Positions 8,696 to 46,946 of a stretch of DNA of 64,000 nucleotides are shown piece after piece. Source of the stretch: Candidatus Cloacimonadota bacterium. GTDB taxonomy: Bacteria > Cloacimonadota > Cloacimonadia > Cloacimonadales > Cloacimonadaceae. A program made the translations under genes and the position numbers. The stretch is from assembly GCA_029781115.1 (NCBI GenBank), contig JAKOXG010000018.1:62001-126000 (forward strand), read 5' to 3'. A model generated the notes under the pieces. The model was not told where the DNA came from. It saw nothing but the letters and a program-made list of their open reading frames with translations, and did no database searches. Within the stretch, counting starts at the first letter, position 1; each line of letters begins with the position of its first letter.

Positions 8696-9079
8696 CTAAG
8701 ACAACTTGGGCTCAAACTTCTCCGGATTGTTCATCATGGATGTTAGCATTCTGCGAATCTCACTGTATTCGCCTATCAGGGTGTTGTACGTAGACTCATC
8801 AATGTATTTGAATCTGAGGCAAAAAGCTAACCAGACTTCTGTTTCCATTTGCTCGGATAATGCATCGCTGAGTTTGTTTATAAATACTTTGGGATAGATC
8901 TTTCTTCCCCAGGCTTCTGCAAGATTGGCGCATATAGACCTTGACGATCTTCGGATCTGGTCTGTCAGCGAATACAGCTCCTCTTTAGGAAATGATCTTG
9001 TGATTTCATAAATCTTGCATGCCAATTCAAACGATTTCTGGTATACGATTAAATCTCTAAAACTCTTTATTACTGCCAT
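8696..9079 (-). CDS. Four-helix-bundle protein (23S rRNA IVP/Avd-like), copy A
   Basis: A 127-residue small helical protein of the S23/intervening-sequence-protein family. The shared features are SFRDLIVYQKSFELACKIYE, the LYSLTDQIRRSSRSI helix and the NLAEAWGR loop, a variant of the usual NIAEGxGR. Family members were first seen inside 23S rRNA intervening sequences. Avd of diversity-generating retroelements is a relative, but most free-standing copies have no known function. The stop codon touches a GCGGCGAAGCCGC hairpin (8683-8695). Direct copies of an AGTCGTC array lie on both sides (8635-8669 and 9122-9159). It differs clearly from copies B and C, which sit in AGGTGTT arrays. Confidence 0.85.
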   Translation of the reverse strand: MAVIKSFRDLIVYQKSFELACKIYEITRSFPKEELYSLTDQIRRSSRSICANLAEAWGRKIYPKVFINKLSDALSEQMETEVWLAFCLRFKYIDESTYNTLIGEYSEIRRMLTSMMNNPEKFEPKLS

Positions 9080-11856: not shown

Positions 11857-12717
11857 GCCGACTGCGTCGGACGGTTTTAGGTGTTAGGGCTGCGCTGGTT
11901 TCGAGGCTTTCTATTTTTTCCACGGATACACACGGATGTGCACGGATGGGGGCAGCTTCGCCGCAGGTGTTAGGGGTTAGGTGTTAGAGCTGCGCTGGTC
12001 TCGAGGATGAGAATGCTCTTGGTGGCAATCCGGATAGCTCTGGAGCTCTTTGTTTTTCCACGGATGCCTTGTATGGTCGCTTGCCAAAGCGACCCAAAGT
12101 AGGTAGCCGGCGGTTGCCATACCGCCGCCAGCAGGCGCCAGCCTGCTTTCTACCACAACCCCAAAACTAACCACATCTATACCAAAAACACGAGTAACTC
12201 CGAAGCCAGCGCAGCTACTCACAACTGCGGCGAAGCCGACACAGTCGGCCTGGAGAGCGAGGTCATGTGAGGTTGGTCGCTATGGCAAGCGACCATACAA
12301 GAGCAGGCGTATCTTTGGCTCCAGCGCAGCTCTAACACCTAAAACCTAACACCTAACACCTGGACGACGCAGTCGGCCCGGAGAGCGAGGCCATGTGAAG
12401 CAACGGCGGTTCAGCGACCGCCCGTACAAGAGCAGGCGCATCTTTGGCTCCGGCGCAGCTCTAACACCTAACACCTAAAACCTAACACCTAAAACCTGGC
12501 CGACGCAGTCGGCCCTCCTTCCTTACTGAGCCTCCCGGTGATTACCCGGAGCCTCCCGGGAAAAACCCGAGTATCTCCACGGCATCTCCGGGCGGGTGAG
12601 TAAGGGACAAGTGGATAGCGAGGTCATGTGAAGCAGCGGCGGTTCAGCGACCGCCCGTACAAGAGCAGGCGCATCCTCGAGACCAGCGCAGCGACTGACT
12701 ACTGACGACTGACGACT
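11857..12717. repeat. Intergenic repeat mosaic, heptamer arrays and hairpin modules
   Basis: Gene-free. AGGTGTT-type arrays on the plus strand (11873-11888 and 11966-11988) each end in CTGCGCTGG. The same type in reverse lies at 12332-12361 and 12461-12497, and an AGTCGTC-type array in reverse at 12692-12717. Between them are CACGGATG-type 9-mers (about 11930-11948), a GGTCGCTTGCCAAAGCGACC hairpin near 12076-12095, GGCGGTTCAGCGACCGCC hairpins, GGCCGAC/GTCGGCC palindromes, and one copy of the 88-bp element. The arrays face each other, so the whole block is roughly inverted about its centre. 11740-11856 carries the promoter above and nothing else I can identify. Confidence 0.75.
12520..12607 (+). 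repeat. 88-bp structured element, copy 1
   Basis: The outer stem is CCTTACT/AGTAAGG. Inside are a CTCCCGG-TGATTA-CCCGGAG hairpin with one mismatch, a GGG-AAAAA-CCC hairpin and a third GC-rich stem. Near-identical copies lie at 27169-27257 (reverse), 41448-41535 and 48528-48614. Confidence 0.75.
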
Positions 12718-12786: not shown

Positions 12787-15700
12787 TTAGGGGGTTGCTT
12801 TCCGACGGCCATTGATATCTTTCATATCTCTGACGATCGGATTATCATCTGCCGGTACGATATTCATTTTTGACAGATTGCGCAATGCCAACAGGCCTCT
12901 TGCTGAGTCACGGTAGGTATTGGCGGTGACTTTGTAGAAGCCTTTACCTGCCGTTGTGCTCATGGTGGCGGTGTTGGTATAGACGGTAGCTGCAGGCACA
13001 GTACCGAAGTTGTAGGGATCTTCAGATACGTAGACCTTGTAGTTGTAGGCATAGGGAATTGCCGGCCAATCCAGCACAGCGTTTGTGTCGGAGAGTGTCA
13101 CACTCACCGTAGGAGCGGCTAATGTGGTCACCAAGGAAGCGGGATCCATGATGAATATGGTGTAGGGCACATTGTTGGATGCATATCCACCAGTGGGGGC
13201 GGCGTGATCCAATGTTCCATCAGCGCCATCGGAATAGACATATCTGGTTCTACTGGGATAGTTGGCATCCGGTGTGTTGAGCCAGAAGCAGTTTTGGACC
13301 CAGCCATCCTCCCAGGTTTTACTGGTTCTGATAGCCAGGTTTCCGCCCGTGTAGGTGAAGGGCGTGATGGGGATATGGACTGCGTTGATGCCTTCGGGGC
13401 AGAAGATGTTGCCATCAAATACGAGTTGATAGCCGTCCCAAGGCAGCCAGGCGCCCACGTTTACAGCATCCGTATTTTTCATCCAGATTTGCACAGGGGA
13501 AGTGTGATCTGTCTGGAAATGGTTGTAGTAGACGAGAGCGTTGATCGTGCCACCGGTAGCTTGGACTTCGCTTGCCAGGTAGACAGTCTCTGCCACGAAA
13601 TCCTTGTAATATACGTTGAAGGGATATACGTTTGACATCTGTAGGTTGCCAGCATCGCCTATGGTAAGGAATGACGAGCTTGCTGCGTAGACGGTCACAT
13701 CCTTTGCTGCGGTGGTGTTGTTGGCGACATTCTGGTCACCGGCAAGCACTACTTCAGCGTAAATCGCTGTAGTGCCTGCGGCGGTGGGAGTCCAGCTAAC
13801 AGTATGCACCTTGCTTTCCAAGGAATTGATGACATCAGAAACCTGCAGTTGGCCCAGCGTGGCACCGGAGCCCTGCTCTTTGATGTAGACAGTGTAGTTG
13901 GACTGAGCATCCATGCCTGCGTTGTTCACAGTCACATACTGTTCCTTGGCGACGCCAACTTTACCATATGGACTGCCACCAAGGAAGAGGGCTTCCAGAT
14001 CAGCAGCAAAAGCCTCGGAAACGCGGATATCATCCACAGCGATGAAGTCCAGATTAACCGGTGACTTGGCATGCCAGCCTAAGTAATAGAGACCAGTGGT
14101 GACAGGGGTGAAGAACAGGTCCATTTGAGTCCAATTAGGATAGGTGAGCTGACCATCAAACAGAGCAGCATTGGCGGTCATGGAAGCCACGGTGGGCTGT
14201 GTGCCCCAGTGTACTGCCAATTGTTCGGGAACTTCATTCCAACCTTCGCCCTTCACCTGGAAGCTTATCCTGTAGGCCTGATTGGCTTGCATGCTGAAGG
14301 GGACGGTGATCATCCACTCATCTTTGGGATAAGAAGAGCTGTAGAATACCGCCGCAGCATTGGGTAGAGAGGTAGCACCAACACCGGAAGAGGCTTTCCA
14401 GGGTCTGTTAGCCGGGGAGGAAATAATAGTCCATTGAGCCGGCATTTCACCCGCTGCAAGAGCATCGAAGTTCTCTGTCCAGGGGTAGCTATAAACGACA
14501 GGGTCGTCCTCAATCACAAAGGAATAGGAGGTGGTTTGCACAGCATCGCCATGAGTATTGATGGCTTGGATAGTCCAGTAGTAACGCTGTCCGTAAGTGT
14601 AGCTATAGGGAGGATCTGCGAGCACTGGATTGAGGCCGGTGTTTGTAGTTTCCCAATAGGTGCCACTAAACACATCATCCGGATCAGTGCTCAGGAATAC
14701 GGCATAATAATCCGGTACTCCGCCATTGTTCAGGTCAGGACTCCATTTGAGCTCAAATCCAGCCTTGGGAAGACCCGTAGCTCCATCAGCAGGAGAGACG
14801 AGAGTGGGTGCAGCAGGGGCACCGGCAATAGGCTCGTCTATATATATCATCATGTTGGGACGATAGTTGCTGAGAGTTCCCGTAGTGACGGTATTCCATT
14901 CAGTACTGTCGTGGCGATAATACAGAGTCTTATTTACTGTAGTATCAGTATAATAGGTACTGGCATTCAGCACTGCCGATGGCAGCAAATCATAGCTGGT
15001 TTGGACCACCAGGTTGGACACTCCATCCCAGTAGAAGGGGGAAGTGAGATTGTGGCTGTTCCATCCGGCTACGGGAGTATAAGTACCTGTACCGGTTGAA
15101 TACGCTTGGGTGAGACCGGTCAGGAAGTTGGTATCGGCAAACTCCGTGGCTGTAGTAGCACCGATGCTAATGGTGAAGTTTGGCAGGTTGGCTGAGGTGT
15201 TGGGATTTTGAACGTTGAAGCCAAGGGTTTTGATGATACCTGCTTGGGCTCCCAACGCTGTCAGCTCAGCGGCAGTGAATATATACTGCTCACGGCCATT
15301 CTTGTAGTATCCACCATAAACACATGGAGCACCTGTATTGCTATTGGCAGTCGTTCCCTCACCCACGAAGAAGATATCTTCCGGCAGGATATTGGCACTC
15401 AGAGCCACATCGTAGTTTGTTCCACCATACGCAATACGCAAGGTAGCGGAGATGGGGCCTTCTGTGGTGCTCTGCACCGTTACGGGAACAGTTACAGATT
15501 CATCCCTTCCCAAATCTACTGGCAGGGCTGGGTCGGTGGTTCCAACGGAGAAATCCGCTGCATTGGGACCAACAAAACTGAAGCTGGATGTGCTCAGGTC
15601 TATGGTTCCCGAACCTTCGTTTGTAATGGTGACCAGCACTGGATTGCTGAGGGTGTTATAGAGCAAGGTACCAAAGTTAATGGCATCAGGCGTGTAGGTG

Positions 15701-18700
15701 AAGACCGGAGCCGTGGGCGCGAGTGTCACCGAGATGTCGTCAATACTCATATACATGGGATTATAAGCGACCACGCCATGGATGCCAATCCAATGGATAC
15801 CAGTGGTTTCCGGGGTGAAGGTTCCTCTGATCTGCTGATAATCTCCACTGACAACGCCGGTTTGTTCCACGATGGCGGTCATGCCATCAATGGTGCCAGA
15901 GCTGCCGTAGTAAAGACCAACGGTGGCATTAGCTGCGGTGGTTGTATTCTGCCTGGCCCAGACTTCCACGTCGTAGGCTACCCCACCTTGCAAGGAGAAG
16001 GGTCTCATCAACCAGGCATTGCTGCTCCAACGCAAGGTGGCATTGAAATCACCATTACGTGGGGTACGGTAGTAATCAGTGTTGGTGGAGTTGGCCATCC
16101 AATAATTGCTACCACTCTCCAGATGCTGCACCCAGTTTTTCACTTGAGCACCATGCGTCTGCCCCTCTTCAAAGCCTTCAGTGAAGGGGATGGTATAGAC
16201 GGTCGGGTCTGCCATGGTGGTGAAGCTGCGCGGCGTAGCTGGGGCACTTTCGTCTGTAGTGTTCACCGCTGTCACAGTCCAATACAAGGTGCTGCTGTAG
16301 GGCAAGCCTACAGTGGGTGTGAAGCTGGTAGTCGTGCTGGTGCCGATCAGCGTGGTAGGCATAGTGCTGGCATCACAATAGATATTGTAAGATGTGGGCA
16401 CACCACCTGTGCTGGAAGCAGTCCAGGTGAAGGTGGGATTAGGGTTCAGATCAGTAGCAGCGTCTGCGGGAGCAGTAAGTGTGGGAGCCTCAGGGGCAAT
16501 AGCAGCGAAATCCGGGCCAATGACATAGTCTACATAGTAGGTGGCTGCATACAAACCGGTTTGGAAGCCAAGGTAGTAGTTGTTACCAGCCAGCGTGCTG
16601 AGGTCTATATCGACATTGTACCAGGTGTTGCTTGCGTCGAAGGTGATATCGCTTCCCAATTGAACCCAGCTGACCCTGTCTGTGGAGTATACCACTTGCA
16701 AGATGCCACTGGTATTGGTGCAACGGGTCCAGAAGTTGAGTCTGCTATCGGTATCAATGGCGAGCATAGGCGTGCTGAGCACGTATTGTGTGCTGGCAGA
16801 GCCATACTTGGAGGCAGACTTTGTTCCATGGAAGGGAGTGGTGCTGGTGCTCCAGTTACCCTTATCCCAGCCCGCAGGTGGGAAGCTGGTGGCTTCAAAG
16901 CTCTCAAACAGAGCGTTTTCGCTCAGAGCTCTTCCGCTTAGGGCCACATCATAGTTATTCCCATCATGAACCATGCGCAAGGTGGCAGTATGTGTGCCTA
17001 CTGCGGTGGGGTTGTAACGAACCGGGATGGTGCCGCTTTCGTTTGTGGCAAGAGCAAAAGGCAGGTTGCTGTTATTGAGCTCAAACATCGCCGCATCAGT
17101 TCCGATGATGCTGACGTTTGCTACAGCCAGGTTCAGGGTACCTGCACCCGTGTTTGACACAGTTACATCCTGATAGGCCATGGGAGTATTGACAAAGCCA
17201 GCGCCAAAGTCAATTGTAACAGGTGCATAGGCGAATACGGGTGAGGGTGGAATATCGCCAAACTGCATCTTGATATTGGCATAGGCATTCCTCTGGCTGT
17301 AGTACGCTGCGGCGTCGGGAGGAGTGGCAGGATTAGGGTTTGTGTTATCGTCGTAGTAGAGCAAGGCACGTGTGCCGGTTACAGAAGTGGAGTAGAAGTA
17401 CCCTGAGCTACCACTGTTTCCAGGCGTGTTTTCGTAAACGGCGATCAGGAGGTTGTCTGTGTTGTTGTAGACGAAGGGGGCATCCAGGGTGATATCGACC
17501 CATCCCGCTGTAGCTGGAAGGTTTAACTCGCCGGTGTAGACCTGGGTGAGATTGTCATAAGGCACCCAATCCTGACCATCGGTGAAAGAGTCTTTATTGG
17601 TGTGTGCCATATAGACCGTCCAACCTTTGCTGTTGGTTCCTGCTGCGGCACCGTTCCAGTAGAAGGCGATTTGCTCAACGCGCTTGTCAGGTATGTTGAT
17701 ATCGCTCTGGAGATAGATGGTCTGACTGTAATTGAAGTTGTAGTAGGGATAGATGGGCAGGTAGCCATTGCTAGTTCCATTACCGATATACACCAAACCT
17801 TCCGGGAGGGTGGTGAAGCTGCGCGGTGTAGCTGCAGGACCATCTCCGACTGCGTTCACAGCCTTCACAGTCCAGTACAAGGGGGTATTGTAGGGCAGAG
17901 GAGTGGTAGGTGTGAAGCTGAGCTCTGTGCTGGTACCGATCAGCGTGGTGGGGTTGGTGTTGGCATCACAATAGATCTTGTAGGATGTGGGGATGCCACC
18001 CGTGGTGGGAACAGTCCAGGTGAAGGTGGGAGTAACGCTCACTTCGATAGCAGCGTCCGCTGGTGAAACAAGCCCAGGAGCACCCGGGGCAAGGGGTGTG
18101 ATATTGGGACCAACAACCATATCCACGTAGTAGCTGCCACCAGTTAAACCGGTGCGGAAGCCGATATAGTAGTTGTTACCAGCCAGCGTGCTGAGGTCTA
18201 CATTGACATTGTACCAGGTGTTGGGCTCATTGGGCTCAGCAAAGCTGAAATCGCTGCCCACCTGAGTCCAGTTGGTTCTATCCGTGGAATATACAACTTG
18301 CAGATAGGCGGTGGAATTGGTGCAACGCGTCCAGAAGTCGATGCTGCTATCGGCAGTAACGGTAAGCATGGGGGTGCTGAGCACATACTGTGTAGAGGTA
18401 GAACCAGTTACGTTGGCAGATGCGCTCCCTTGCACAGGGGTTATGAAGGTAGTGCGTCCCCAGTTACCGGCATCCCATCCCATAGGCGGGAAGGTGGTGT
18501 CTTCAAAGCTCTCCAAGAGAGCGTTTGCACCCACGGCTCTGCCGGTCAGGGCTACATCATAGTTGTTGCCACCATAGCTCATGCGCAAGGTGGCAGTATG
18601 TGTACCTGTTGCGGTGGGGTTGTAGCGGACCGGGATATTGCCACTTTGATCTGCTGTGAGCGCAAGAGACTGGAGGTTGGGATCAACTTGGAACATGGCC

Positions 18701-21150
18701 GCATCTGTTCCCACGATGCTAACATCTCCCGGGTTCAGAGTCAGCGTACCAATACCGATATTGGTGACAGTGACATTCTGATATGCTGTAGCAGTATTGA
18801 CGTAGGTAGTATAGAATTCTATGGCGTCAGGAGCATGGGAGAAGATGGGAGCGGTTGGCGTCTCACGCACGCGCACCTGATCCACGTAGAGATAGTTATC
18901 GCCTCCGGCTTCGGTTGATTCCCCGTAGAAGGCAATGTATTTGGTACCCACATGTGCACTGAGATCTATGGCAATAGCTTCGCCCAAGGGAGCGATATTA
19001 TCATACACATCAGTAGAGCCGGCGTTATCCCATCTTTTGAGTTCTGTCGCACCTGACATATCAGGGTTGTCAGAGATCAGGACGATGAACTTGTCATCTT
19101 GTTGTTCGCCAGGGGTAACTGCAACGCCGCTACCATTCCAGTATGAGAGTGCCAGATCAAAATCCAGTTGGTAACCAGTAGCAGGAATAGCGATGGGTGG
19201 TGTGACTAACCAGTATCTGGTGGTAGTGCTGAAAATATTAATCCTGGCACAGGGATTACCGGAATCGGAAACATTGGCGAAGTTGGCGGCTCTGCGCCAA
19301 CCATAGGTAGTAGGGGTGAGCGTGTAGGGATTCTGATCATCATACAAGCCTGAGTAGCGTGCCCATTCTGCAGGCGGGAAGGTGGTATTGGTGAAACCCT
19401 CCACCCAGGGGAAATCATAGATGGTGGGATCATAACAGGCGCCACTGACGTTCAGGGTGGTATTGGCACGTCCATCAGAGATGGTAAAGGTGGCACTATG
19501 GGTACCAACAGCCGTGGGAGCATATTTAATGCTGAAGGTTGTGGTTTCACCCATAGCCAAAGACACTGGCCATTGAGGGGCGTCCGTCACGCTAAAGAAG
19601 CCATCGCTTGTGGGGCTGATACCGGTGACGTTTAGCGTGCCGCCTCCAGCATTCATGATGGTGAAGGTTTGGCTGCTGGTGGTGTTGATAATGAGGCTGC
19701 CAAAGTCATACCCTGCGGGATTGATGCTAAAGACAGGATTGGTTGGCAGGGGCACGAACAACATGAGCACGTTTGGTAGATTAGTGCTCAGCGACCCGTT
19801 ATCTGTAGGTTCGCTACCGTCTTTATACCAACGTTGATTTGAGTCTGTGGTACCGGTAGTGTAGTGGAAATAGGGAATATTTTGATATCCCGCTCCGGAG
19901 CCACCATAGTTGACTTCCACACCGATGAGCAGGTTGCCACCGGTGTAAGGAAATGGCGCGTCCAAGGTTAAATTGTGCCAGCCTGCGCTGTCAAAGGCGT
20001 ATTCCCCCTCTTTTACCACAGTGGCACCAGTGGTGAAATCAGCCCAGGGCATCTGAGCAAGTGCTGTCTCGGAGGTAGGTTTGATGTAGATCTTATAGGG
20101 AATTAATGTGGCTTTGGGAGTAGCTACACTCCAGCCCAAGGTGGTGATTTGGCCAGTCTGCCCGATTTGAGCTTCCGTGTAGAGTGATAAGGAACGAGTG
20201 TATCCATAGTTGACATAAAATGGATATGTTTGGTTGGAAGTTCCCGTGCCGATAATCACCCCATTGACAAATTCAAAGGTACCCGTGGCAGAGGCAGGCG
20301 AGACACCGATACTGTTGCGAGCTTTCACATACCAGGTGTGCGTGCCTACGCTTGTAGAGGCAGGCAGTGCATAAGTGGTTCCCTCCTGATTGCTGCTGAC
20401 CATGGTATCGTCGATATAGACGTCATAGCCAGTAGCATCAGCAGGTCCAGTGGGCTGAGTCCAGCATAGGAGCTGACCAGCCATCACCTGAGCACCATTT
20501 ACGGGTGATACAAGTGTGGGAGCCGCAGGTGCCACAGTGTCTGGGAAGACAAGCTGGATGCGGTTGATGTCGCTATACATTGTTGAATATGCTGCACCAG
20601 GATTGTCAATATCAAAATCAGTGCTATCACTACGATAATACATACCGGTATCGGCTCCGCTGGTGAAAGCTCCACAGTACAAATATGATGAAGTCCAGCC
20701 GGAAGTATACTGGTGTACAGCAACGACCAAGTTATCAGTATTGTTGTAAGTGAAGGGGGTAGTCAGAGGGATCTCCATCCAGTTACCCGCCGCGGGCAGC
20801 AGGGAAGATACATCACCATCAAAGACTTCGGTTAGGCCAGCAGGTGTTTCCCAATCCGAGGCACTGGAAAATGCCGTTTTCTGAGTGTGTCCCAGGTAGA
20901 TTCGCCAACCTTGACTGTTGGTTAAACTACCCGACGCATAGTAGAAACGGATTTTACTTATTGAACCACCTTGACCAATTTGGCTTTGGGTATAGATCTG
21001 CTGCGAATAGGTGAAGTGATAGTAACCATCAATGGGCAATCTTCTGGTAGTTGCAGTTCCATCACCTATTTGCACGGTAAGCGCATAGCTCAGGCTGAAG
21101 ATACTCAGCATCAGAGCTATGAGCACGATTAAGGATAAATATCGTTTCAT
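12787..21150 (-). CDS. Giant secreted multidomain adhesin-like protein (2787 aa)
   Basis: A 2787-residue exported protein with signal peptide MKRYLSLIVLIALMLSIFSLSYA. It is built from repeated modules in rotating order. One is a roughly 150-residue unit beginning IGxGTxxxxxLP(I/F) and containing SQxIYxxSxI (about 25-200, 300-470, 1150-1300, with further relatives later). Others are fibronectin III-like domains with PxLVSPxxGA(T/Q), choice-of-anchor-D/ASH-like domains (PxxxxFGxxxxNTxxxxxVTVxNxGxGTL), and cleaved-adhesin/MAM-like jelly-roll domains (FExTxFPPxGWDxGNW, STPMLxxxxxSxxxFWTRCTN). There is no catalytic motif. Unlike its neighbours it lacks the PNPF-type C-terminal sorting domain; the end is short and basic (NGRRKATP). 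An AAGGAG ribosome binding site precedes the ATG. A surface adhesin or polymer-binding role is inferred from the modules. Confidence 0.85.
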   Translation of the reverse strand: MKRYLSLIVLIALMLSIFSLSYALTVQIGDGTATTRRLPIDGYYHFTYSQQIYTQSQIGQGGSISKIRFYYASGSLTNSQGWRIYLGHTQKTAFSSASDWETPAGLTEVFDGDVSSLLPAAGNWMEIPLTTPFTYNNTDNLVVAVHQYTSGWTSSYLYCGAFTSGADTGMYYRSDSTDFDIDNPGAAYSTMYSDINRIQLVFPDTVAPAAPTLVSPVNGAQVMAGQLLCWTQPTGPADATGYDVYIDDTMVSSNQEGTTYALPASTSVGTHTWYVKARNSIGVSPASATGTFEFVNGVIIGTGTSNQTYPFYVNYGYTRSLSLYTEAQIGQTGQITTLGWSVATPKATLIPYKIYIKPTSETALAQMPWADFTTGATVVKEGEYAFDSAGWHNLTLDAPFPYTGGNLLIGVEVNYGGSGAGYQNIPYFHYTTGTTDSNQRWYKDGSEPTDNGSLSTNLPNVLMLFVPLPTNPVFSINPAGYDFGSLIINTTSSQTFTIMNAGGGTLNVTGISPTSDGFFSVTDAPQWPVSLAMGETTTFSIKYAPTAVGTHSATFTISDGRANTTLNVSGACYDPTIYDFPWVEGFTNTTFPPAEWARYSGLYDDQNPYTLTPTTYGWRRAANFANVSDSGNPCARINIFSTTTRYWLVTPPIAIPATGYQLDFDLALSYWNGSGVAVTPGEQQDDKFIVLISDNPDMSGATELKRWDNAGSTDVYDNIAPLGEAIAIDLSAHVGTKYIAFYGESTEAGGDNYLYVDQVRVRETPTAPIFSHAPDAIEFYTTYVNTATAYQNVTVTNIGIGTLTLNPGDVSIVGTDAAMFQVDPNLQSLALTADQSGNIPVRYNPTATGTHTATLRMSYGGNNYDVALTGRAVGANALLESFEDTTFPPMGWDAGNWGRTTFITPVQGSASANVTGSTSTQYVLSTPMLTVTADSSIDFWTRCTNSTAYLQVVYSTDRTNWTQVGSDFSFAEPNEPNTWYNVNVDLSTLAGNNYYIGFRTGLTGGSYYVDMVVGPNITPLAPGAPGLVSPADAAIEVSVTPTFTWTVPTTGGIPTSYKIYCDANTNPTTLIGTSTELSFTPTTPLPYNTPLYWTVKAVNAVGDGPAATPRSFTTLPEGLVYIGNGTSNGYLPIYPYYNFNYSQTIYLQSDINIPDKRVEQIAFYWNGAAAGTNSKGWTVYMAHTNKDSFTDGQDWVPYDNLTQVYTGELNLPATAGWVDITLDAPFVYNNTDNLLIAVYENTPGNSGSSGYFYSTSVTGTRALLYYDDNTNPNPATPPDAAAYYSQRNAYANIKMQFGDIPPSPVFAYAPVTIDFGAGFVNTPMAYQDVTVSNTGAGTLNLAVANVSIIGTDAAMFELNNSNLPFALATNESGTIPVRYNPTAVGTHTATLRMVHDGNNYDVALSGRALSENALFESFEATSFPPAGWDKGNWSTSTTPFHGTKSASKYGSASTQYVLSTPMLAIDTDSRLNFWTRCTNTSGILQVVYSTDRVSWVQLGSDITFDASNTWYNVDIDLSTLAGNNYYLGFQTGLYAATYYVDYVIGPDFAAIAPEAPTLTAPADAATDLNPNPTFTWTASSTGGVPTSYNIYCDASTMPTTLIGTSTTTSFTPTVGLPYSSTLYWTVTAVNTTDESAPATPRSFTTMADPTVYTIPFTEGFEEGQTHGAQVKNWVQHLESGSNYWMANSTNTDYYRTPRNGDFNATLRWSSNAWLMRPFSLQGGVAYDVEVWARQNTTTAANATVGLYYGSSGTIDGMTAIVEQTGVVSGDYQQIRGTFTPETTGIHWIGIHGVVAYNPMYMSIDDISVTLAPTAPVFTYTPDAINFGTLLYNTLSNPVLVTITNEGSGTIDLSTSSFSFVGPNAADFSVGTTDPALPVDLGRDESVTVPVTVQSTTEGPISATLRIAYGGTNYDVALSANILPEDIFFVGEGTTANSNTGAPCVYGGYYKNGREQYIFTAAELTALGAQAGIIKTLGFNVQNPNTSANLPNFTISIGATTATEFADTNFLTGLTQAYSTGTGTYTPVAGWNSHNLTSPFYWDGVSNLVVQTSYDLLPSAVLNASTYYTDTTVNKTLYYRHDSTEWNTVTTGTLSNYRPNMMIYIDEPIAGAPAAPTLVSPADGATGLPKAGFELKWSPDLNNGGVPDYYAVFLSTDPDDVFSGTYWETTNTGLNPVLADPPYSYTYGQRYYWTIQAINTHGDAVQTTSYSFVIEDDPVVYSYPWTENFDALAAGEMPAQWTIISSPANRPWKASSGVGATSLPNAAAVFYSSSYPKDEWMITVPFSMQANQAYRISFQVKGEGWNEVPEQLAVHWGTQPTVASMTANAALFDGQLTYPNWTQMDLFFTPVTTGLYYLGWHAKSPVNLDFIAVDDIRVSEAFAADLEALFLGGSPYGKVGVAKEQYVTVNNAGMDAQSNYTVYIKEQGSGATLGQLQVSDVINSLESKVHTVSWTPTAAGTTAIYAEVVLAGDQNVANNTTAAKDVTVYAASSSFLTIGDAGNLQMSNVYPFNVYYKDFVAETVYLASEVQATGGTINALVYYNHFQTDHTSPVQIWMKNTDAVNVGAWLPWDGYQLVFDGNIFCPEGINAVHIPITPFTYTGGNLAIRTSKTWEDGWVQNCFWLNTPDANYPSRTRYVYSDGADGTLDHAAPTGGYASNNVPYTIFIMDPASLVTTLAAPTVSVTLSDTNAVLDWPAIPYAYNYKVYVSEDPYNFGTVPAATVYTNTATMSTTAGKGFYKVTANTYRDSARGLLALRNLSKMNIVPADDNPIVRDMKDINGRRKATP

Positions 21151-22199: not shown

Positions 22200-22571
22200 T
22201 TAGGGGGAGGACGTTTTTAACCTGGTGCGCATGGTGCTAAGCATTCGGCCAATTTCGTCACACAGAGACAAGGGTGTCTTGGCATCTTGCTCACTGAGAA
22301 ATTTAAGCCGGATTGACAGTAGTAGTTGAGTTTCCAATTCGCTTAATGAACCTTGGGCAATAGAAAGAAAGCGCAAATACTCCTGCCTGGAATCCCTGCC
22401 TTTCCCTTCAGCAATGTTGGAAACTACAGATACTGCTGCTCTGCGCATCTGGTCTGTAAGTGAATACAGCGCAGCTTTGGGAAAACCCGCTGTTATCTGG
22501 TAAATCATCTCAGCAAGGGACATCCCCTTCTGCCACACCATCAAGTCTTTATAACTCTTAATCTTGTTCAT
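22200..22571 (-). CDS. Four-helix-bundle protein (23S rRNA IVP/Avd-like), copy B
   Basis: A 123-residue member of the same small helical family, with SYKDLMVWQKGMSLAEMIY, LYSLTDQMRRAAVSVVSNIAEGKGR and EYLRFLSIAQGSLSELETQL as the typical signature. I start it at the ATG at 22571, the same start as copy C; the eight extra codons of the longer frame would be read from heptamer repeats. The array begins 5 bp upstream (AGGGGTT, ATGAT, ATG) and may supply the ribosome binding site. The stop TAA is read from the GTGTTAGGGGG heptamer on the other side. It differs from copy C at only 5 of 123 residues, so the copies are recent. Confidence 0.88.
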   Translation of the reverse strand: MNKIKSYKDLMVWQKGMSLAEMIYQITAGFPKAALYSLTDQMRRAAVSVVSNIAEGKGRDSRQEYLRFLSIAQGSLSELETQLLLSIRLKFLSEQDAKTPLSLCDEIGRMLSTMRTRLKTSSP

Positions 22572-27145: not shown

Positions 27146-27168
27146 CACACGACCTCGCTATCCACTTG

Positions 27169-27257
27169 TCCCTTACTTACCCGCCCGGTGATGCCGTGGA
27201 GATACTCGGGTTTTTTACGGGAGGCTCCGGGTAATCACCGGGAGGCTCAGTAAGGAA
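27169..27257 (-). repeat. 88-bp structured element, copy 2 (reverse)
   Basis: The reverse-complement copy of the element at 12520-12607, with the same outer CCTTACT/AGTAAGG-like stem and the same internal stems. The A-rich loop is one base longer. Flanked by the GCGAGGTC and GGCCGACGCAGTCG modules. Confidence 0.72.
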
Positions 27258-27306
27258 GGAGGGCCGACGCAGTCGTCCAGGTGTTAGGGGCCGACGGGCG
27301 TCGGCC

Positions 27307-27339: not shown

Positions 27340-27704
27340 GAGGGTGTTTTTAACCTGGTACGCATGGTGCTTAGCATTCGGCCAATTTCGTCACACAGGG
27401 ACAAGGGAGCCTTGGCTTCTTGCTCACTGAGAAATCTAAGCCGGATTGATAGTAGTAGTTGAGTTTCCAATTCGCTTAGTGAACCTTGGGCAATAGAAAG
27501 AAAGCGCAAATACTCCTGCCTGGAATCCCTGCCTTTCCCTTCAGCAATGTTGGAAACTACAGATACTGCTGCTCTGCGCATCTGGTCTGTAAGTGAATAC
27601 AGCTCAGCTTTGGGAAAACCCGCTGTTATCTGGTAAATCATCTCAGCAAGGGACATCCCCTTCTGCCATACCATCAAGTCTTTATAACTCTTAATCTTGT
27701 TCAT
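27333..27704 (-). CDS. Four-helix-bundle protein (23S rRNA IVP/Avd-like), copy C
   Basis: A 123-residue protein, 118/123 identical to copy B 5 kb away, with the same NIAEGKGR loop and SLSELETQL helix. Start at MNKIKSYKDL; the array begins 7 bp upstream on the minus strand (AGGGGT, ATTATGAT, ATG), with AGGGG as a possible ribosome binding site. The stop codon is read from a heptamer. Copies B and C sit at either end of the rpmH-yidC operon block, each between heptamer arrays. Both their coding sequence and their flanks are conserved, which points to recent copying of gene and flanks together. Confidence 0.88.
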   Translation of the reverse strand: MNKIKSYKDLMVWQKGMSLAEMIYQITAGFPKAELYSLTDQMRRAAVSVVSNIAEGKGRDSRQEYLRFLSIAQGSLSELETQLLLSIRLRFLSEQEAKAPLSLCDEIGRMLSTMRTRLKTPSP

Positions 27705-27780: not shown

Positions 27781-30700
27781 TCAATTCCGTATCGCTTTCA
27801 CATAGTAGAAACCCAATGGCAGATTGCTCAGGTCATCGTATTGAAGGGCGCTGATATTGGAGCCGATCCGTTCGTAAGTGCCGTAGGGCTCAGTGGCGCG
27901 CCAAACTTCGTAGCAATCCGCATGTTCAACCGCAGTCCAAGTGATGCGGAAGCCGCCATCTATCTTGGTGATGGCAGTGATCTCAGGAGTTGGGACGCTA
28001 TCCCAGACCTCCATGGTGGCGTTCACATTGGGGCTGGGATTGGCGGTGTCGTTGGAATAAACGGTGATCTGAGCTGCATAGTTGCCCACTGCCATACCAA
28101 CAGCGGAGAAATTGGCGGTAATGGTGACGCTTTCACCTCCGGCAATGCTGCCAGAGACAGGGTGCACGCTCAGCCAGTCGATGGGGAGAAAATCCTCAGC
28201 CAGCGCCACGGAACCTGAGAGGGTATGGGGTTCGGATTGCCACTCGTCACCGTTGATGGTCCAGGGCAGGGTGAGGTAGCCGCTGAAGCCTGAGGCTATG
28301 CTCACATTGACCGTGGCGGAAGCGGATTCGCCGCCCTTGATCAGGCCATAGCCGTTGGATGTCTCACCGTGCCAGGTGATGGTTACACCTTCGCCACTGC
28401 TCAGATTCGGAGTCAGGTCTCCCCCACTGCCGCCCACGAAATTGGTGACGCTATTTACGGTCACGCCGGTGGGGAAAGTGATGATCATATCTGTGATCCA
28501 CTCCGTATCTGTACTGCCATTGGTTACGGTGAAGGTCCAATCCACCGTGGTGCCGGGCAGGTAATGCGTGGCGTCCAGGGTAAAGGTGCTGCCTGCGATA
28601 CTCTTATCTTGTTTTGAAGCTGCCTGCGGTTTGTCGATGGTTCTGGGGCTTTGCTGTGCCATGCAGATATCGAAAGTGAGGGGTCGGCTGCCGTTGTTGG
28701 TGATGGTAAAGCTGTCGGTACCGCTGGTGCCCACTTGCAGGTTGGCAGAGAGGGCGTTGCCATCGATGCTGATGGTGGGCAGGATATAGCCCGTGCCGCT
28801 CACGGCGATATTGACGCTGGCTTCGTTCACAGCATTGCCGGAAATCACCACATTACCATTGTAGGCAGTCGCGGCAGTGGGTGCAAAAGTGAGATTGTAG
28901 GTCTTGCTGGCTCCTGCTGCTACTGTGAAGCCCATGCTGTAGCGGCTTCCCCCTGTGGATTCCAGGATGCGTGTGGAACGACCAGCCTCAGCCACCGTGT
29001 AACCTGCGGGCGTGGTGATGGTGCCGGTGAGGGTCTGGTTTCCAAAGTTCCGGATGGTGAAGGTTTTTACTGCGTTGCTGCCCACGGCAACGTCGCCAAA
29101 GGCCAAGCTTACAGGAATTACATCTAACAGTGGTCCATCCGGGGCAGCCTGATAGGCCAGCTTGAGATTGGGGCGCAGGTTGGAGGTGGAGCCGCCACTG
29201 AAGACGTTGGTTTGATCATTACCGTCTCTGCGCACGTAGCGGTAACCGTTGGGCACGGAAGTGTATTGGGTAGTGCCGCTCCTGTTACAGTCGCTACATA
29301 TACCAAAGGCGGTGTCGATTACAATGTTGTCTATTCCGTTCCATAAGAAAGGAGTTGAGAGGACATACATGTTCCAGCCGGTAGCCGTGGGCTGGTAGGA
29401 GGCGCTGTTCCAGACTTGTTTGAGACCGGTGGAAATCCAATCTGAGGCGTCTGCAGCAGCGGTGTGTCCCATACGGATCACAAAATTGGGCATGGCATAG
29501 TCCGGTAATCCGGTTACGTTGAAACCGATCTGGTTGATAATGGTGGGGCCGATCACGCCAACAGCATTGAGTTCCGCCTTGGTGTAAACCGACTGTCCGT
29601 GCAGACTCTTGTACCAGACGTTGATCGGAGAGGCTGCAGATGTTCCGGTGGAGCCGGTTCCGGAGCCGATGGTAGCCTCTATGGGCAGCACAGCGAGCCT
29701 GATATTGGGACGATAGTTGGAGGTGTAACCAGTGCTAAAGATGTCGGTCTGATCAACAGAGTCGCTTTGTCCATAGCGGTAACCGCTGGTCACAGTGGTG
29801 AATTGGACGGTTCCGCTGGAGTTCCAGGATTCGGTCAAGCCAAAAGCAGTGTCGATCACGATATTATCTGTTCCATTCCAGAGGAAAGGAGTGGAGAGGG
29901 TATACATGTTCCAACCGGTAGCGGTAGGCCGGTAGGAAGCTTCGCTCCATACTTGGGTGAGACCGGTGGTGATCCAGTTTGAGGCATTGGTGGCAGTGGT
30001 GTGCCCTATGCGGATCACGAAATTGGGCATGGTTCTGGCGGGCAGACCGGTGATGTTGAAGCCGATGCGGGTAATTTGGATAGGTCCCTCCACTCCGGCA
30101 GCGTTGAGCTCCGCCTTGGTGTAAACCGATTGTCCGCGCCGGCTCCGGTAATAGACGTTGATCGGAGAGGCTACAGAAGTTCCGGTGGAGCCGGTTCCGG
30201 TGCCGATGACAACTTCACGGGGCAAGCTGGCGGAAGGTGTTGCCTGAACGGTGTTTGAGGGATCAGAAACTCCGCTGCTGTAGATGGCTATCACGTGATA
30301 ACTATAGGTGGTTTCATTTACCACGGAGTTGTCTATATAATTGAAGTTGGTGATTGTAGTTAACAAGCTGCCATTGCGATAGATGCGGTAAGAAGTAGGA
30401 GTGCCGGTAAGCGGAGTTTGCCAGTCGAGTCTCACAGAACCGTTGCTGGCTGTGGCGGTCAGATGCCTGGGAGGGAGCATGGTTCCTGTGGCTACTGCGA
30501 AGGGATAGTAGTTTGAATCCCATTGGTTTGAAGAGAGGTGAGTAACGCGGACATGCACATCCTCGCTATTGTTCATGGCAGGCACGTTGTTCCAGGTATA
30601 GCTGCCGCTATTACTCGTGCTTGAGGTGATCAGATTCCAGTTTTGGCCGCCATCACTGCTATATTCCAGCTTCACGCTTCCCGTGGTGACCTTGCTCTTC

Positions 30701-32286
30701 CAGGTGATTACTTTGCTGGTGCCGCTTTGCCAGATCTCGCCTCCATGCGGCGAGGTGAGCTGAATCTCAGATATTTTCACCTTGAAGGTGATGGTATCAC
30801 CGGCAGTGCCCACATCAAAGAGGTTCAAGCCTCCGGCTGAGTCATCACGCAAAAAGCCGTTTGGCGTGGTGGCTTCGCTGAGCTCGGTGCGTCCGGTTTG
30901 CGCTGAAAAGTGTGCCTGACTCAAGTTGCCATTAATGCTGTTTGTCCCGCCCGGCCTGTAGATATAGAGCTCATCCGGGGGGCCATCAGCGTTGCCCTCC
31001 ACACTCGTATTCAATCTATAGACCAGCAGTCCGGTACCCGGAAGGTTGCCATCATAGGTGCCGTCCGACTTCCTGTATTCCAAGAGGTAGTCTTCGCCAG
31101 CTTTCCAGCTTTTGATGCGATAGATATTGTTGGTGGAGGCAGATGCCACCGGGTGCAGGGTATAAGTTCCGGAGGTGGTGATGGTGGGCACGTTGCTTGA
31201 ACTTATCCACTGCCCGTATCTGTGTTTCATCCAGGCGCTCATGTGTTGGGGTGGGGTGAGGTTGGTGGCCATCAGGTCCCAACTTCCTACGGGAGATATA
31301 TCAGTGTTATAGTATCTATACAGGTCTGGAGCTCCCAAGCTGTGGAACATCTCGTGAGACAGCACGCTGGCTCCGGAGTAGTTGAGTGAGTTTTCCAATT
31401 GGAAATTGAAGTCGTAGACGCGTTTGTTATTGATGTAAACGTAGGTGGTATACATATTCCAGCGATGCGGCCAAAGCAGATCCGCCCAGCCATCCGTTGC
31501 CCCTTGGACGATGAAGCAAACATTATCCACCTTGCCATCGTTGTCCCCATCGATCACCAAAGAGCTGGGAATACCCGATCTCACAGCTTCCACAGCCCTC
31601 TTCAACAACTGCCGCTCGCGTGTGGCGCGCTGGCTGTCCCCAGAATAACCATTGGGATTGGAAGAGCTGTAGGGTTGGAAATAGCTGCGCGGATAGCTGT
31701 CTGTATAAGAAAGCACCGTATTCCCATTGGGCGCAGGATAGAAGTGGGAATCTATGGTCAGCTGATTGTAGGAGGCAGCTTGGAAATAGCGCTTCATCGA
31801 GTCATCTGCCGGCGCATTGTGAATCTGCTGATAATAGCTGAAGGAAGTGCTGAACTCCGGGCTGTCTGAAAACTTGATGAAGATCACGATGTTGTTCAAT
31901 TGACCGGAATGAGGGGCACGAGAACCGCTGTAATCGCGCATATGTGAGTAGCGTTCATACTTTTCCCTGATCTCGTCTTGGCTCAGGTTCAGTCCCGGAA
32001 CGATACCACGCACATTGGGTCTGTCTCTGCCCACCAACAGGTCTGAGGGAACCAAGCGACCACGCTCTTGCATTGCGTAGACATAGGCTCCGGTATCGTC
32101 CTTGACTATGGTGTAATTATCCGCATCATGCAGCCAGTTGTGAAATTCGTCACCGCTGGCATAGATATTGATCTTGCTGCCGTCCGGCTGAGTAGCCTCG
32201 ATAGGCAGAAAGCTGTGGGGTGCTGCTGCCAAGTTTGTGACAATCATAACCATGATTAAGATTGCCAGTCTTGCAATTTGTCTCAT
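27781..32286 (-). CDS. Secreted M6-family metalloprotease with multidomain C terminus
   Basis: A 1501-residue protein from the ATG at 32286 (MRQIARLAILIMVMIVTNLAAA, a signal peptide with GAGGG before it). A propeptide-like region is followed by an M6 peptidase domain with the zinc motif HEMFHSLGAPDLY at about 310-322 and GSWDLMA, typical of immune-inhibitor-A-type proteases. Later parts: a Ser/Thr-rich Ig-like domain (about 515-600), FN3, two copies of a roughly 150-residue unit with SPINVxYxS and GQSVYTKAELNA, an ASH-like domain, a DUF11-like domain, and a final FN3-type segment FRITWTAVEHADCYEVWRA. That last segment is shared with the C25 gene at 34730. It probably acts on extracellular protein. 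Confidence 0.9.
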   Translation of the reverse strand: MRQIARLAILIMVMIVTNLAAAPHSFLPIEATQPDGSKINIYASGDEFHNWLHDADNYTIVKDDTGAYVYAMQERGRLVPSDLLVGRDRPNVRGIVPGLNLSQDEIREKYERYSHMRDYSGSRAPHSGQLNNIVIFIKFSDSPEFSTSFSYYQQIHNAPADDSMKRYFQAASYNQLTIDSHFYPAPNGNTVLSYTDSYPRSYFQPYSSSNPNGYSGDSQRATRERQLLKRAVEAVRSGIPSSLVIDGDNDGKVDNVCFIVQGATDGWADLLWPHRWNMYTTYVYINNKRVYDFNFQLENSLNYSGASVLSHEMFHSLGAPDLYRYYNTDISPVGSWDLMATNLTPPQHMSAWMKHRYGQWISSSNVPTITTSGTYTLHPVASASTNNIYRIKSWKAGEDYLLEYRKSDGTYDGNLPGTGLLVYRLNTSVEGNADGPPDELYIYRPGGTNSINGNLSQAHFSAQTGRTELSEATTPNGFLRDDSAGGLNLFDVGTAGDTITFKVKISEIQLTSPHGGEIWQSGTSKVITWKSKVTTGSVKLEYSSDGGQNWNLITSSTSNSGSYTWNNVPAMNNSEDVHVRVTHLSSNQWDSNYYPFAVATGTMLPPRHLTATASNGSVRLDWQTPLTGTPTSYRIYRNGSLLTTITNFNYIDNSVVNETTYSYHVIAIYSSGVSDPSNTVQATPSASLPREVVIGTGTGSTGTSVASPINVYYRSRRGQSVYTKAELNAAGVEGPIQITRIGFNITGLPARTMPNFVIRIGHTTATNASNWITTGLTQVWSEASYRPTATGWNMYTLSTPFLWNGTDNIVIDTAFGLTESWNSSGTVQFTTVTSGYRYGQSDSVDQTDIFSTGYTSNYRPNIRLAVLPIEATIGSGTGSTGTSAASPINVWYKSLHGQSVYTKAELNAVGVIGPTIINQIGFNVTGLPDYAMPNFVIRMGHTAAADASDWISTGLKQVWNSASYQPTATGWNMYVLSTPFLWNGIDNIVIDTAFGICSDCNRSGTTQYTSVPNGYRYVRRDGNDQTNVFSGGSTSNLRPNLKLAYQAAPDGPLLDVIPVSLAFGDVAVGSNAVKTFTIRNFGNQTLTGTITTPAGYTVAEAGRSTRILESTGGSRYSMGFTVAAGASKTYNLTFAPTAATAYNGNVVISGNAVNEASVNIAVSGTGYILPTISIDGNALSANLQVGTSGTDSFTITNNGSRPLTFDICMAQQSPRTIDKPQAASKQDKSIAGSTFTLDATHYLPGTTVDWTFTVTNGSTDTEWITDMIITFPTGVTVNSVTNFVGGSGGDLTPNLSSGEGVTITWHGETSNGYGLIKGGESASATVNVSIASGFSGYLTLPWTINGDEWQSEPHTLSGSVALAEDFLPIDWLSVHPVSGSIAGGESVTITANFSAVGMAVGNYAAQITVYSNDTANPSPNVNATMEVWDSVPTPEITAITKIDGGFRITWTAVEHADCYEVWRATEPYGTYERIGSNISALQYDDLSNLPLGFYYVKAIRN

Positions 32287-32420
32287 GTTTCCCTCTTTGT
32301 GTCTTAAAAACGTTTTGTTTGCTATCGCTATCCTGAACATCGCCATGATGTTCACGTAAACTCTAAACATTGGTTAATGACCCTTTATTCACATCTATGA
32401 TTGGTCTTTCGATCTGTGGC

Positions 32421-34729: not shown

Positions 34730-37700
34730 TTAGTTTTTGATCGCCTTGATGTAGTAGAAGGCCTTGGGCAGTTCGGTAAGATCGTTGTACTGCAAGGCGT
34801 TGATATTGGAGCCGATCTTTTGGAAGGTTCCATAAGGATCGGTGGCGCGCCAAACTTCGTAGACATCGGCATTCTCCACGGCATTCCAGGTGATGCGGAA
34901 ACCACCGGAAATCTTGGTGATGCCGGTGATCACAGGCGTATTGAGCTCGGTGATCGCAATCACACTGATGGGTGCAGGGCTGGCGGTGCTACCGATTACA
35001 TCATTGTAGGCAAGGGTATAGGTTTGACTGGCGTCGTAGCTCTGGTTGGCGCTGTAGTCAAAGACCTTGAAGCTGACCACTTCGCCGCTGGAAGCCAGGT
35101 TTACCACCAGAGTCACATAGGCATTGCCGCCATTGATCACCACATCGGCCGTGCCGCGACATTCTGTGCCTACAAAGGCACCGACCACGTCGTTGAGTCC
35201 GGCTGCGACTTCATAGATGCTCACGATGCCGTGGATGGTGGCGGAATTGGGGTAGACAACGGGTGTCCAATCAGGGCGGGTCACTTCGTTGACGGTTACC
35301 ACGACGCTGTCGTAGGCGTAGCTGTGGCCGTCATAGACGGAGAAGGTGATGGTTTCGCTGCCAGTCCAGTTTTGGGTGGCGGTGAAGGTCACATTCATGC
35401 CGCTGATGTCCACCAGGATATTGGTGTTGCCGCTGTAGCCCAGGGTGAGTGGATCGAGTTCCGGATCGGAGACGTAGGAGCTGAAATTTACAGTCAGGCT
35501 GCCGTTGCGGTCAAACTCGAAGCTGGCGGGCAGGGCTATCTGAGGCGAGGCGTTGTCCCATACGTCCATGCTGGCGTTGACATTGAGGCTGGGGTTGACG
35601 GGATCGTTGGAATAGATGCTGAGCAGAGCTGCATAGCTGCCCACTGCCATACCCACAGCGGAGAAGTTGGCGGTGATGGTTTGGCTTTCACCTGCGGCAA
35701 TGCTGCCGGAGAGAGGCTGCACGCTCAGCCAGGGAACGGGAGGCAAGTCCTGAGCCAGCGTAATGCTGTCGGAGAGGGTGTGGGGGGCTTCACCGTGAAT
35801 ATCACCGTTGATGGTCCAGGGCAATGAGAGATTGCCACCAAAGCTTGAGCCTATGGTCACATTGACCGTGGCAGAGGCCGATTCGCCTGCCTTGATCATA
35901 CCATAACCGTAGGAGGTCTCACCATGCCAAGTGATGGTCACACCGTTACCACTGTTCATATCCGGAGTCAGGTCACCATTACTGCCGCCTACGAAGTTGG
36001 TAGTGCTATTCACGGTCACGCCGGTGGGGAAAGTAATGATGACATCCTTGAGCCATTCGTAACCGGTGCTACCGTTGGTCACGGTGAAGGTCCAGTCCAC
36101 CGTGGTGCCCGGCAGGTAATCAGCGGTATCCAGGGTTAAGGTGCTGCCTGCGATACTCTTATCTTGACCGGAAGCCAATTGCAGCCCCTTGTTGGCTCTG
36201 GAAGCGAGCTCTTCCATAGTGATATTGAAGCTGAGAGGCTTGCCGCCGCTATTAGTGATGATGAAGCTATCCGTGCCTTGGGTTCCGACCTTCAGGTTGG
36301 CATAGAGCGCGTTGCCGTCGATACTGATGGTAGGTGGGATATAGCCCATACCGCTCACCGCGATATTGACGCTGGTATCATTGTTGGAATTGTTGGCGAT
36401 CACCACGTTGCCGTTGTAGGCAGTCGCGGCGGTGGGCGTGAAAGTGAGGTTGTAGGTCTTGCTGGCGCCTGCGTTCACGCTGAAAGCCAGGCTATTGCGG
36501 CTTTCCTTCGCAAACTGCATGCTTCTGGTGGATCGACCAGCCTCAGCCACAGTGTAACCCGCGGGCGTGGTGATGGTACCGGTGAGAGTTTCGTCGCCGC
36601 CATTCAGGATGGTCAAGGTCTTTACTTCGGTGCTACCTACGGCCACTTCACCATAGTTCAAGGTGTTAGGGCTGACCGCGATCATGGGTCCTCCCGCATT
36701 GGGCTGCAGGATCAGCTTGAGGTTGGGACGAAGGTTCGAGTTATAACCACCGGTAAAGACGCCGGTCTGATCTTCGTTGTCAGCGCGCACATAGCGGTAA
36801 CCATTGCTCACGGACGTATACTGGGTAGTTCCGCTCTTATTGTAGCCACTTGTCGGACTAAAGGCGGTATCCACCACAATGTTGTCTGTGCCGTTCCAGA
36901 GGAAGGGGGTGGAAAGGGTATACATGTTCCAACCGGTGGAGGTAGGTTGGTAGGATGCACTGCTCCAAACCTGGGTGAGGAGCCCTTCAGGGATCCAACT
37001 TGAGGCGTCGGTAGCAGTGGTGTGTCCCATGCGGACCACGAAATTGGGCATGGCATAACCCGGTAAGCCGGTGATGTTGAAACCGATCTGAGTAATATAG
37101 ACAGATCCAACTACACCGGCAGCGTTGAGCTCCGCCTTAGTGTAAACAGATTGTCCGTGCAGGCTCTTGTACCAAACGTTGACGGGACAAGCGATATTGG
37201 TGCCGTTTGAGCCGGTTCCAGTGCCAATGATGACTTCGGATGGCACGATGCCGGTAGGCATGACCTGAACCGTGTTGGAGGGATCTGAATCCCCACCGCT
37301 GTAAATAGCGGTCACGTAATAGGAGTAGGTGGTCTCGTTTACTACGGTATCATCGGTGTGAGTAAGGCCCGTGACCGTGGTCAGCAGGCTGCCATTGCGG
37401 TAGATGCGGTAACCTGTGGGCGTGCCAGTCAGCGGGGCTTGCCAAGTGAGCTCCACATAACCGTTGCCTGGTGTGGCACTCAGGTTTTGGGGTGGATAGA
37501 GCATTCCCACGGCGGGGAATATCTTCAGCTTCAGATTGGGCAGATTGGTGCTGGCAGTCAAAGAAACCGGCTGAGAGTTATCATTGCTGCTCTGCCGGGC
37601 ACGGGCGGGAGAAGCTGTGGTATGGCGCCACGAAGGGTTAGCTGATGTCCACTGCTGGTTGCCCTTGATGGTAAGGATGGAGAGGTTGCTGCCGTCATAG

Positions 37701-40700: not shown

Positions 40701-40810
40701 TTTGGGGTATGGTTCAGCTCTACCTGCCTGCTCTGGGCGGACAAGGCAAAAGCTGCGGATAATATCACTGCCAATAGCAGCAATATCTTAGCCTGTGACT
40801 TTAAGCTCAT
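34730..40810 (-). CDS. Secreted gingipain-like C25 cysteine protease, paralog 1 (2026 aa)
   Basis: A 2026-residue protein with signal peptide MSLKSQAKILLLLAVILSAAFALSA. A propeptide region (about 30-245) is followed by the C25 peptidase domain, with catalytic His in YTAHGSDTSW (about 459) and Cys in MVGNCCIT (about 490). Then come Ig/CARDB-like domains, the SPxxxWYKSLHGQSVYTKAELNA unit, ASH-like and DUF11-like domains, a cadherin-like domain, and the final FRITWNAVENADVYEVWRA segment shared with the M6 protease. About the first 900 residues are close to the neighbour at 41787. Gingipain-type enzymes cleave proteins at the cell surface; the cleavage specificity here is unknown. Confidence 0.92.
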   Translation of the reverse strand: MSLKSQAKILLLLAVILSAAFALSAQSRQVELNHTPNRALLKNNSDLGFEVNYQVGKLNILEVQTRKGTFDELSIEGWGFSTEVGEPKLPMLRKTIAVPLGAEVRLTLNSPQEREMNSKATTLRNPVIPAQAPISKSATTIPFEINDALYRKNEFNTRDWVEVSELGIMRGVRVFALDFYPVRYNPVTNSIRVLENLDLRVDFINPDLGATADLLAKTASWEFEKLYANIIFNWEAETRTVLVRNPTKMVILCPVGYTNNASLQNYVEWKTQQGFAVSVASVGSGGDMANTTTAIKNYMQNLWNNATAQNPAPTYLIIIGDESGSIAVTTNSAEASGYVTDLTYVRLNGSDYLPEMYHGRFSVSSTTELANVINKTITYEKTLMPDLSYLGKTVLIAGVDSNFASTHGNGAINYATTQYFNASHGITSNNYLYPESGQSAAQIRANANEGRGYIVYTAHGSDTSWANPEFNTSHVNAMTNSGKYGVMVGNCCITNHFNISSPCFGEAVIRKADGGGVVYIGGIDSTYWNEDYYWAVGYKTNINGSAPAYDANKLGAYDAMFHTHGESYDKWATTTGETIYSGNMAVVQSGSSRSNYYWEVYHIMGDPSLMPYMGVPTANPASYPTQIAIGNTSYAITGAAPYTRVGLSMNGVLYGSGITNASGNLTLTINPFNTAGTAKLVLTAQNRITKIADIPVISTSGPYLSVETVAYDDANNDIPEYNESGYLDVTFKNVGSSNATNVSAVLSCSTAGVTITDANHTISSLAAGASVFANNAYAITITNNVADGTVANFTITMTMSGQDPWTHNFTLTLKAPALSFGTMTISDPGGNNNGLLDPGETVTITMPLSNNGGAASTSGTATLNCSATGITVNSGTANFSSIAAGGSTNLSFTVTAAASMSEGTLVDFVFAATAGQYGANITEGVEVGAPLEVIIGTGTSTQRYPLDRYYNYSSHEAIYLASEIGTAGSIKSMAFYKSGGSDMADIEAVTVYMKNTSSTTLASGNYTTEGYTQVYSGPWPNNATSGWMEVDLDNRFPYDGSNLSILTIKGNQQWTSANPSWRHTTASPARARQSSNDNSQPVSLTASTNLPNLKLKIFPAVGMLYPPQNLSATPGNGYVELTWQAPLTGTPTGYRIYRNGSLLTTVTGLTHTDDTVVNETTYSYYVTAIYSGGDSDPSNTVQVMPTGIVPSEVIIGTGTGSNGTNIACPVNVWYKSLHGQSVYTKAELNAAGVVGSVYITQIGFNITGLPGYAMPNFVVRMGHTTATDASSWIPEGLLTQVWSSASYQPTSTGWNMYTLSTPFLWNGTDNIVVDTAFSPTSGYNKSGTTQYTSVSNGYRYVRADNEDQTGVFTGGYNSNLRPNLKLILQPNAGGPMIAVSPNTLNYGEVAVGSTEVKTLTILNGGDETLTGTITTPAGYTVAEAGRSTRSMQFAKESRNSLAFSVNAGASKTYNLTFTPTAATAYNGNVVIANNSNNDTSVNIAVSGMGYIPPTISIDGNALYANLKVGTQGTDSFIITNSGGKPLSFNITMEELASRANKGLQLASGQDKSIAGSTLTLDTADYLPGTTVDWTFTVTNGSTGYEWLKDVIITFPTGVTVNSTTNFVGGSNGDLTPDMNSGNGVTITWHGETSYGYGMIKAGESASATVNVTIGSSFGGNLSLPWTINGDIHGEAPHTLSDSITLAQDLPPVPWLSVQPLSGSIAAGESQTITANFSAVGMAVGSYAALLSIYSNDPVNPSLNVNASMDVWDNASPQIALPASFEFDRNGSLTVNFSSYVSDPELDPLTLGYSGNTNILVDISGMNVTFTATQNWTGSETITFSVYDGHSYAYDSVVVTVNEVTRPDWTPVVYPNSATIHGIVSIYEVAAGLNDVVGAFVGTECRGTADVVINGGNAYVTLVVNLASSGEVVSFKVFDYSANQSYDASQTYTLAYNDVIGSTASPAPISVIAITELNTPVITGITKISGGFRITWNAVENADVYEVWRATDPYGTFQKIGSNINALQYNDLTELPKAFYYIKAIKN

Positions 40811-46892: not shown

Positions 46893-46916
46893 AAGATTCT
46901 CCTTAATATATCCATT

Positions 46917-46946
46917 AAAATATTGTATTAAAGAAAAGCATGTCAA
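46917..46946 (-). promoter_or_regulatory. Candidate promoter of C25 paralog 2
   Basis: TTGACA (46946-46941) and TATTTT (46922-46917) with an 18-bp spacer, about 25 bp upstream of the start codon. A second TTGACA at 47009-47004 lies in the segment shared with paralog 1, so the true start of transcription is uncertain. Confidence 0.4.

Follow-up and report, generated by a model that had tools for sequence, protein, structure and literature searches.

ERIC elements are imperfect palindromes of about 100-130 bp. REPs are short palindromes tagged with GTAG or CGTC, and those of the GTAG type often lie beside RAYT genes (PMC3733652); our comparison with prokaryotic MITEs and ERIC elements is drawn from a review (PMC10969869). 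In the literature searched, we found no description in Cloacimonadota of the repeat reported here. Here, we analysed a stretch of 64,000 nucleotides (the window) from a Cloacimonadota genome of 2.25 Mb (G000), which contains a repeated hairpin that is probably a non-autonomous, MITE/ERIC-like palindromic mobile repeat of intergenic DNA, amplified separately in each species.

The original prediction placed four copies of an 88-bp structured element in the window. A repeat search (families D13 and I1-I3), a probe and a covariance model (R2) agree on all four at the sites claimed, and a related stretch without the hairpin lies upstream of copy 1:

12509-12617, forward strand: copy 1, core 12521-12605 (R2 111.3 bits; probe match 12566-12586)
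27159-27267, reverse strand: copy 2, core 27171-27255 (R2 103 bits)
41438-41545, forward strand: copy 3, core 41449-41533 (R2 115.4 bits)
48517-48625, forward strand: copy 4, core 48529-48613 (R2 118.9 bits)
12360-12420, forward strand: empty-site-like paralogue, a repeat stretch similar to the sequence on either side of copy 1, with the hairpin absent (read directly from the sequence)

The 21-base core probe matched the window four times versus zero matches expected (none in 100 shuffles), and the covariance model gave the same four copies and no further one within the window. The 85-base cores of the four copies are identical at 79-83 of 85 bases, i.e. they differ at 2-6 positions, and copies 1 and 2 have about 147 bases in common if the flanks are included (inverted repeat I1, 12488-12634/27142-27288, 93%). 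The full element is longer than predicted, extending to about 109 bp around the 85-bp core, because many copies have additional pairing (CACCCAC...GTGGGTG) outside the CCTTACT/AGTAAGG stem; the outer part of the consensus is CACCCACCTCTT...CCAAGTGGGTG, and the element is GC-rich (about 0.6). In the empty-site-like paralogue, which reads CGACGCAGTCGGCC ... GCGAGG-CATGTGAAGCA-CGGCGG, the junction is not clean and a few bases differ.

A covariance-model search of 125 genomes of the phylum, as the original prediction had proposed, gave matches in 10 genomes, all of family f1 (genera g1, g3 and g4). G000 contains at least 43 copies. Its sister species G005, a 99% complete genome that ranks with the richest in copies, has at least 34 (118 first-look candidates); 27 were found in G021, which belongs to another genus, and a few each in G001, G002 and G004, some of these matches being the two strands of one palindrome. 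Diverged subfamilies are present in eight genomes besides G000 and G005. No copy was detected in the sister genome G003 (93% complete), and the 21-base probe had no match in viral contigs.

It had also been claimed that the element has its own ends, and this is supported: copy 4, which is flanked by an SdpI-like gene (47804-48466) and an Exo_endo_phos gene (48754-49662; Pfam), is missing at the orthologous loci of G002 and G005, where both flanking genes are present in order (84-88% identity in G002). At these empty sites the intergenic DNA is too diverged for the exact junction to be read, and few further sites are comparable with G002. Conversely, G000 and G005 have sites in common (L014/L037, L026/L041, L155/L147 and L158/L150) and, therefore, the insertion is older than their split at some loci.

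The G000 copies are intergenic and dispersed. By simple ORF calls, the nearest genes of 42 of them are convergent in 16 cases, divergent in 10 and codirectional or undecided in the rest, and these mixed orientations speak against a leader or riboswitch-like element of fixed orientation. The many intergenic copies and the slight excess of convergent over divergent neighbours are consistent with a DNA site of host function (a nucleoid-protein, gyrase or segregation site, or a bidirectional terminator) that was spread by selection like BIMEs, as is a motif of about 11-12 bases (GATGNCGNGGA) that, in several genomes, is repeated within the arms of the element. However, none was detected in G003 and only few in G002; therefore, the element is dispensable. 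Moreover, there is no terminator-like T-run around copy 4, and we regard a host site as very unlikely.

Other repeats are also present in the window. The only three genes for S23/IVP four-helix-bundle proteins (PF05635) in G000 all lie here (8738-9058, 22236-22550 and 27369-27683), near 7-bp arrays (CTAACAC, GTCGTCA), and two of them are within 300-base blocks that are 96% identical. The giant ORFs at 12787-21150, 27781-32370, 34730-40810 and 41787-47027 contain or share long duplicated stretches (families D2-D6 and D11-D17). At about 48783-48813, there is a repeat of about 30 bp (GGTGAGATCGTCAGTGTATATTATAGAGGG) with a promoter-like look, of which G000 contains many near-exact copies and which is also found in G002 and G005.

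The outer stem CCTTACT/AGTAAGG of the original prediction was recovered in the predicted fold; by contrast, its three inner stems were not, and the minimum-energy fold is a single long bulged hairpin with AAAAA as the closing loop. The hairpin (about 109 nt) has a predicted energy of -61.2 kcal/mol versus -36.2 +/- 3.4 kcal/mol for shuffles (z -7.4), and the stretch surrounding a copy in G001 has a predicted fold of -104.7 kcal/mol. The RNAalifold consensus fold of the close copies differed and was poorly supported, and the single hairpin was used instead. With this structure, 86.6% of the cells are paired in 47 close copies versus 37-49% when it is slid along the alignment.

Differences between the copies had been described as tending to preserve pairing. 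The single cases in copies 3 and 4 stand, i.e. a C-to-T change in copy 3 restores a U-A pair at a position of the apical stem (columns 48-62) that is a C.A mismatch in 28 of the 47 copies, and a G-U is kept in copy 4 at columns 17-93; over all 47 close copies, however, covariation is slight at most, with eight double-change pairs versus 6.5 expected and a covariation score of 0.088 versus 0.081 +/- 0.005 for shuffles, of which 25 of 500 reach it. In the core, paired and unpaired columns are equally conserved (93.3% versus 93.8%), and identity is 93% in the core versus 73% in the outer columns. Thus, the close copies come near to the pattern that the original prediction had named as evidence against itself, i.e. 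no covariation and changes spread evenly over stems and loops, whereas covariation between genomes is strong: stem sequences are largely different yet still pair, with compensatory differences in 35 of 40 pairs, a count for which the alignment had been fitted to the structure and the matches had been selected by the hairpin model. Correction or exchange at the DNA level can maintain pairing between the arms of palindromic DNA. Given this possibility, the fitted alignment and the selected matches, the pairing between genomes therefore shows a conserved palindrome and not an RNA.

In the main stem, G.T mismatches exceed A.C mismatches (75 versus seven cells), and, with the asymmetric ends as the reference, the A-rich loop falls on one and the same strand. 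Both would fit, as would the strong predicted fold and the pairing across genomes, a functional structured RNA, either a small RNA or a hairpin in transcript processing or stability, that is selected for its fold. However, the G.T excess is due to a few positions, is small in G021 (33 to 21) and does not extend to the outer and apical helices, and the asymmetry was not taken to indicate an RNA strand. Similarly, no Rfam family was reached when the whole window was searched at the gathering score and copy 1 permissively, the sole match (NsiR1) being a chance match outside the element and below its cut-off. Nor do the near-absence of covariation among close copies, the variable position and orientation relative to genes, and the lineage-specific presence and absence of a dispersed, high-copy element fit an RNA. 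The functional RNA raised in the original prediction is thus not supported and we consider it quite unlikely; most likely, the hairpin is retained for reasons other than encoding a cellular RNA.

Some copies are part of larger units. Five of the at least 43 copies in G000 are inside complete 214-224-bp units (type A) with terminal inverted repeats (TIRs) of the sequence GGCTCATGTTCAATTTTAGTGGG (ends also given as GGCTCATGTTCA(A)TTT). One of these units has a perfect 8-bp target duplication (GTATTTTA/GTATTTTA), two have near 8-bp duplications (AAGAGTGA/AAGAGTAA and GAAGGCAG/GAAGGTAA), and the remaining two have no convincing duplication. In G005, some copies are in units of about 215 bp with the TIR CCCnnATAATGCARTAG (also given as CCCnnATAATGCA) and 5-bp duplications, TTTAT and TTAAA, that were read by eye; in the G021 copies, no separate TIR or duplication was recognisable. 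The units in G000 and G005 differ, so inverted-repeat units of more than one kind contain the hairpin core. In G002, about 15 places within roughly 0.3 Mb carry a further, dispersed unit, about 485 bp long, with G000-type ends (GGCTCATGTTCAATTT) and a different interior (e.g. L219:5749-6233 and L232:6830-7387). A hairpin resembling a REP, with the sequence GGTCGGTCCGGCGACCGACCCTAC or one close to it, adjoins the left end of the G005 copies L138, L139, L144, L149 and L151; in many G005 copies it does so at the same base, as if REPs inserted there preferentially.

This exact junction with GGTCGGTCCGGCGACCGACCCTAC in many G005 copies, as well as the two RAYT-like genes in G000 (224-aa frames) and the two in G021, would fit a REP/REPIN-type element that is moved by RAYT, a Y1 tyrosine transposase, upon recognition of the single-stranded hairpin. 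However, the G000 RAYT-like genes (L072 and L073) are within their own dense REP arrays (GTACGGGCGGTCGCTGAACCGCC, GTATGGTCGCTTGCCATAGCGACC; the REP sequence GTACGGGCGGTCGC is also named alongside them), and these two loci contain no copy of the element while L241 has only an 18-base weak match. Moreover, the copy-rich and 99% complete G005 has no Y1_Tnp match, and the element is one bulged hairpin of about 109 nt and not a short tagged stem of 20-40 bp. RAYT was discarded as the mover because no copies lie beside the RAYT genes and none of these genes was detected in G005, and we hold a REP/REPIN-type element to be unlikely. The search for movers of the TIR units covered two DDE families: an IS1595-type transposase (PF12762) is absent, and an IS256-type transposase (PF00872) is present only in G002, with other ends. 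As none bear the ends of the TIR units, these transposases were also rejected.

High copy number, intergenic scatter, presence and absence at orthologous sites, species-specific subfamilies that keep pairing, and some TIR units all support that the element is a mobile repeat of the MITE/ERIC-like kind. Against it, only five of the at least 43 G000 copies are in complete TIR units and no transposase with matching ends was found in the families searched; moreover, the better conservation of the core (93%) than of its surroundings (73%) is not predicted for a plain MITE. As a mechanism for such a mobile repeat, we suggest that a transposase supplied in trans moved the TIR units, the candidate families searched having none with these ends, and that later REP insertions and truncations may have reduced the copies to what they all share, the hairpin core. 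Most likely, the hairpin was kept because mobilisation needs the palindrome itself or because its arms are homogenised at the DNA level. Alternatively, the core could be an independently mobile or selected module, common to different transposon-like units (with the TIR GGCTCATGTTCA in G000, with the TIR CCCnnATAATGCA in G005 and bare in G021), in which each species has replaced the stem sequences but retained the loop, the ends and the pairing; such a hairpin-based element would have a mechanism of mobilisation or host function not yet described. We find this joint claim, taken as a whole, unlikely; if the core were truly a module of different transposon ends, the question would be what keeps the hairpin intact while its sequence is replaced. 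As a mobile repeat, the element gives a practically uncultured phylum an ERIC-like repeat family of its own, which can serve to trace recent genome change and to type strains, and it cautions against taking repeated hairpins for RNAs on the strength of 'compensatory' differences.

In comparison with known systems, the element resembles integron attC sites in forming an imperfect bulged hairpin; however, RYYYAAC/GTTRRRY ends were not seen by eye, in line with the original prediction, and the copies are solitary, far apart and without a cassette array. It has in common with REPs and REPINs that it is palindromic, dispersed and intergenic, and RAYTs and their REPs coexist with it in G000; by contrast, those RAYT genes carry other REPs, the long bulged hairpin with its A-rich loop differs from short GTAG-tagged stems, and G005 is rich in copies without a detectable RAYT.

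The best reading is that the element fits the MITE/ERIC-like class, a known kind of repeat, with an incomplete set of MITE features. It is short, non-coding and dispersed in many copies, and has empty orthologous sites (copy 4, in G002 and G005). The element forms an inverted repeat over its whole length; separate TIRs are found in a minority (five units in G000, several in G005), as are target duplications (one perfect and two near 8-bp duplications in G000, two of 5 bp in G005 and none in others). As in Correia elements and QMITE2, a small non-coding sequence with inverted repeats and some target duplications would form a stable stem-loop if transcribed; it differs in that no parent insertion sequence was found among the IS256 and IS1595 families, in that one hairpin core is in two different TIR units, and in being GC-rich (about 0.6) and not AT-rich. 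ERIC elements are likewise imperfect palindromes of similar size that lie between genes in tens to hundreds of copies, with lineage-specific numbers, and no dedicated transposase is known for them either. The likeness to ERIC elements is one of features between different phyla and, unlike them, the Cloacimonadota core is also found inside larger units with separate inverted repeats.
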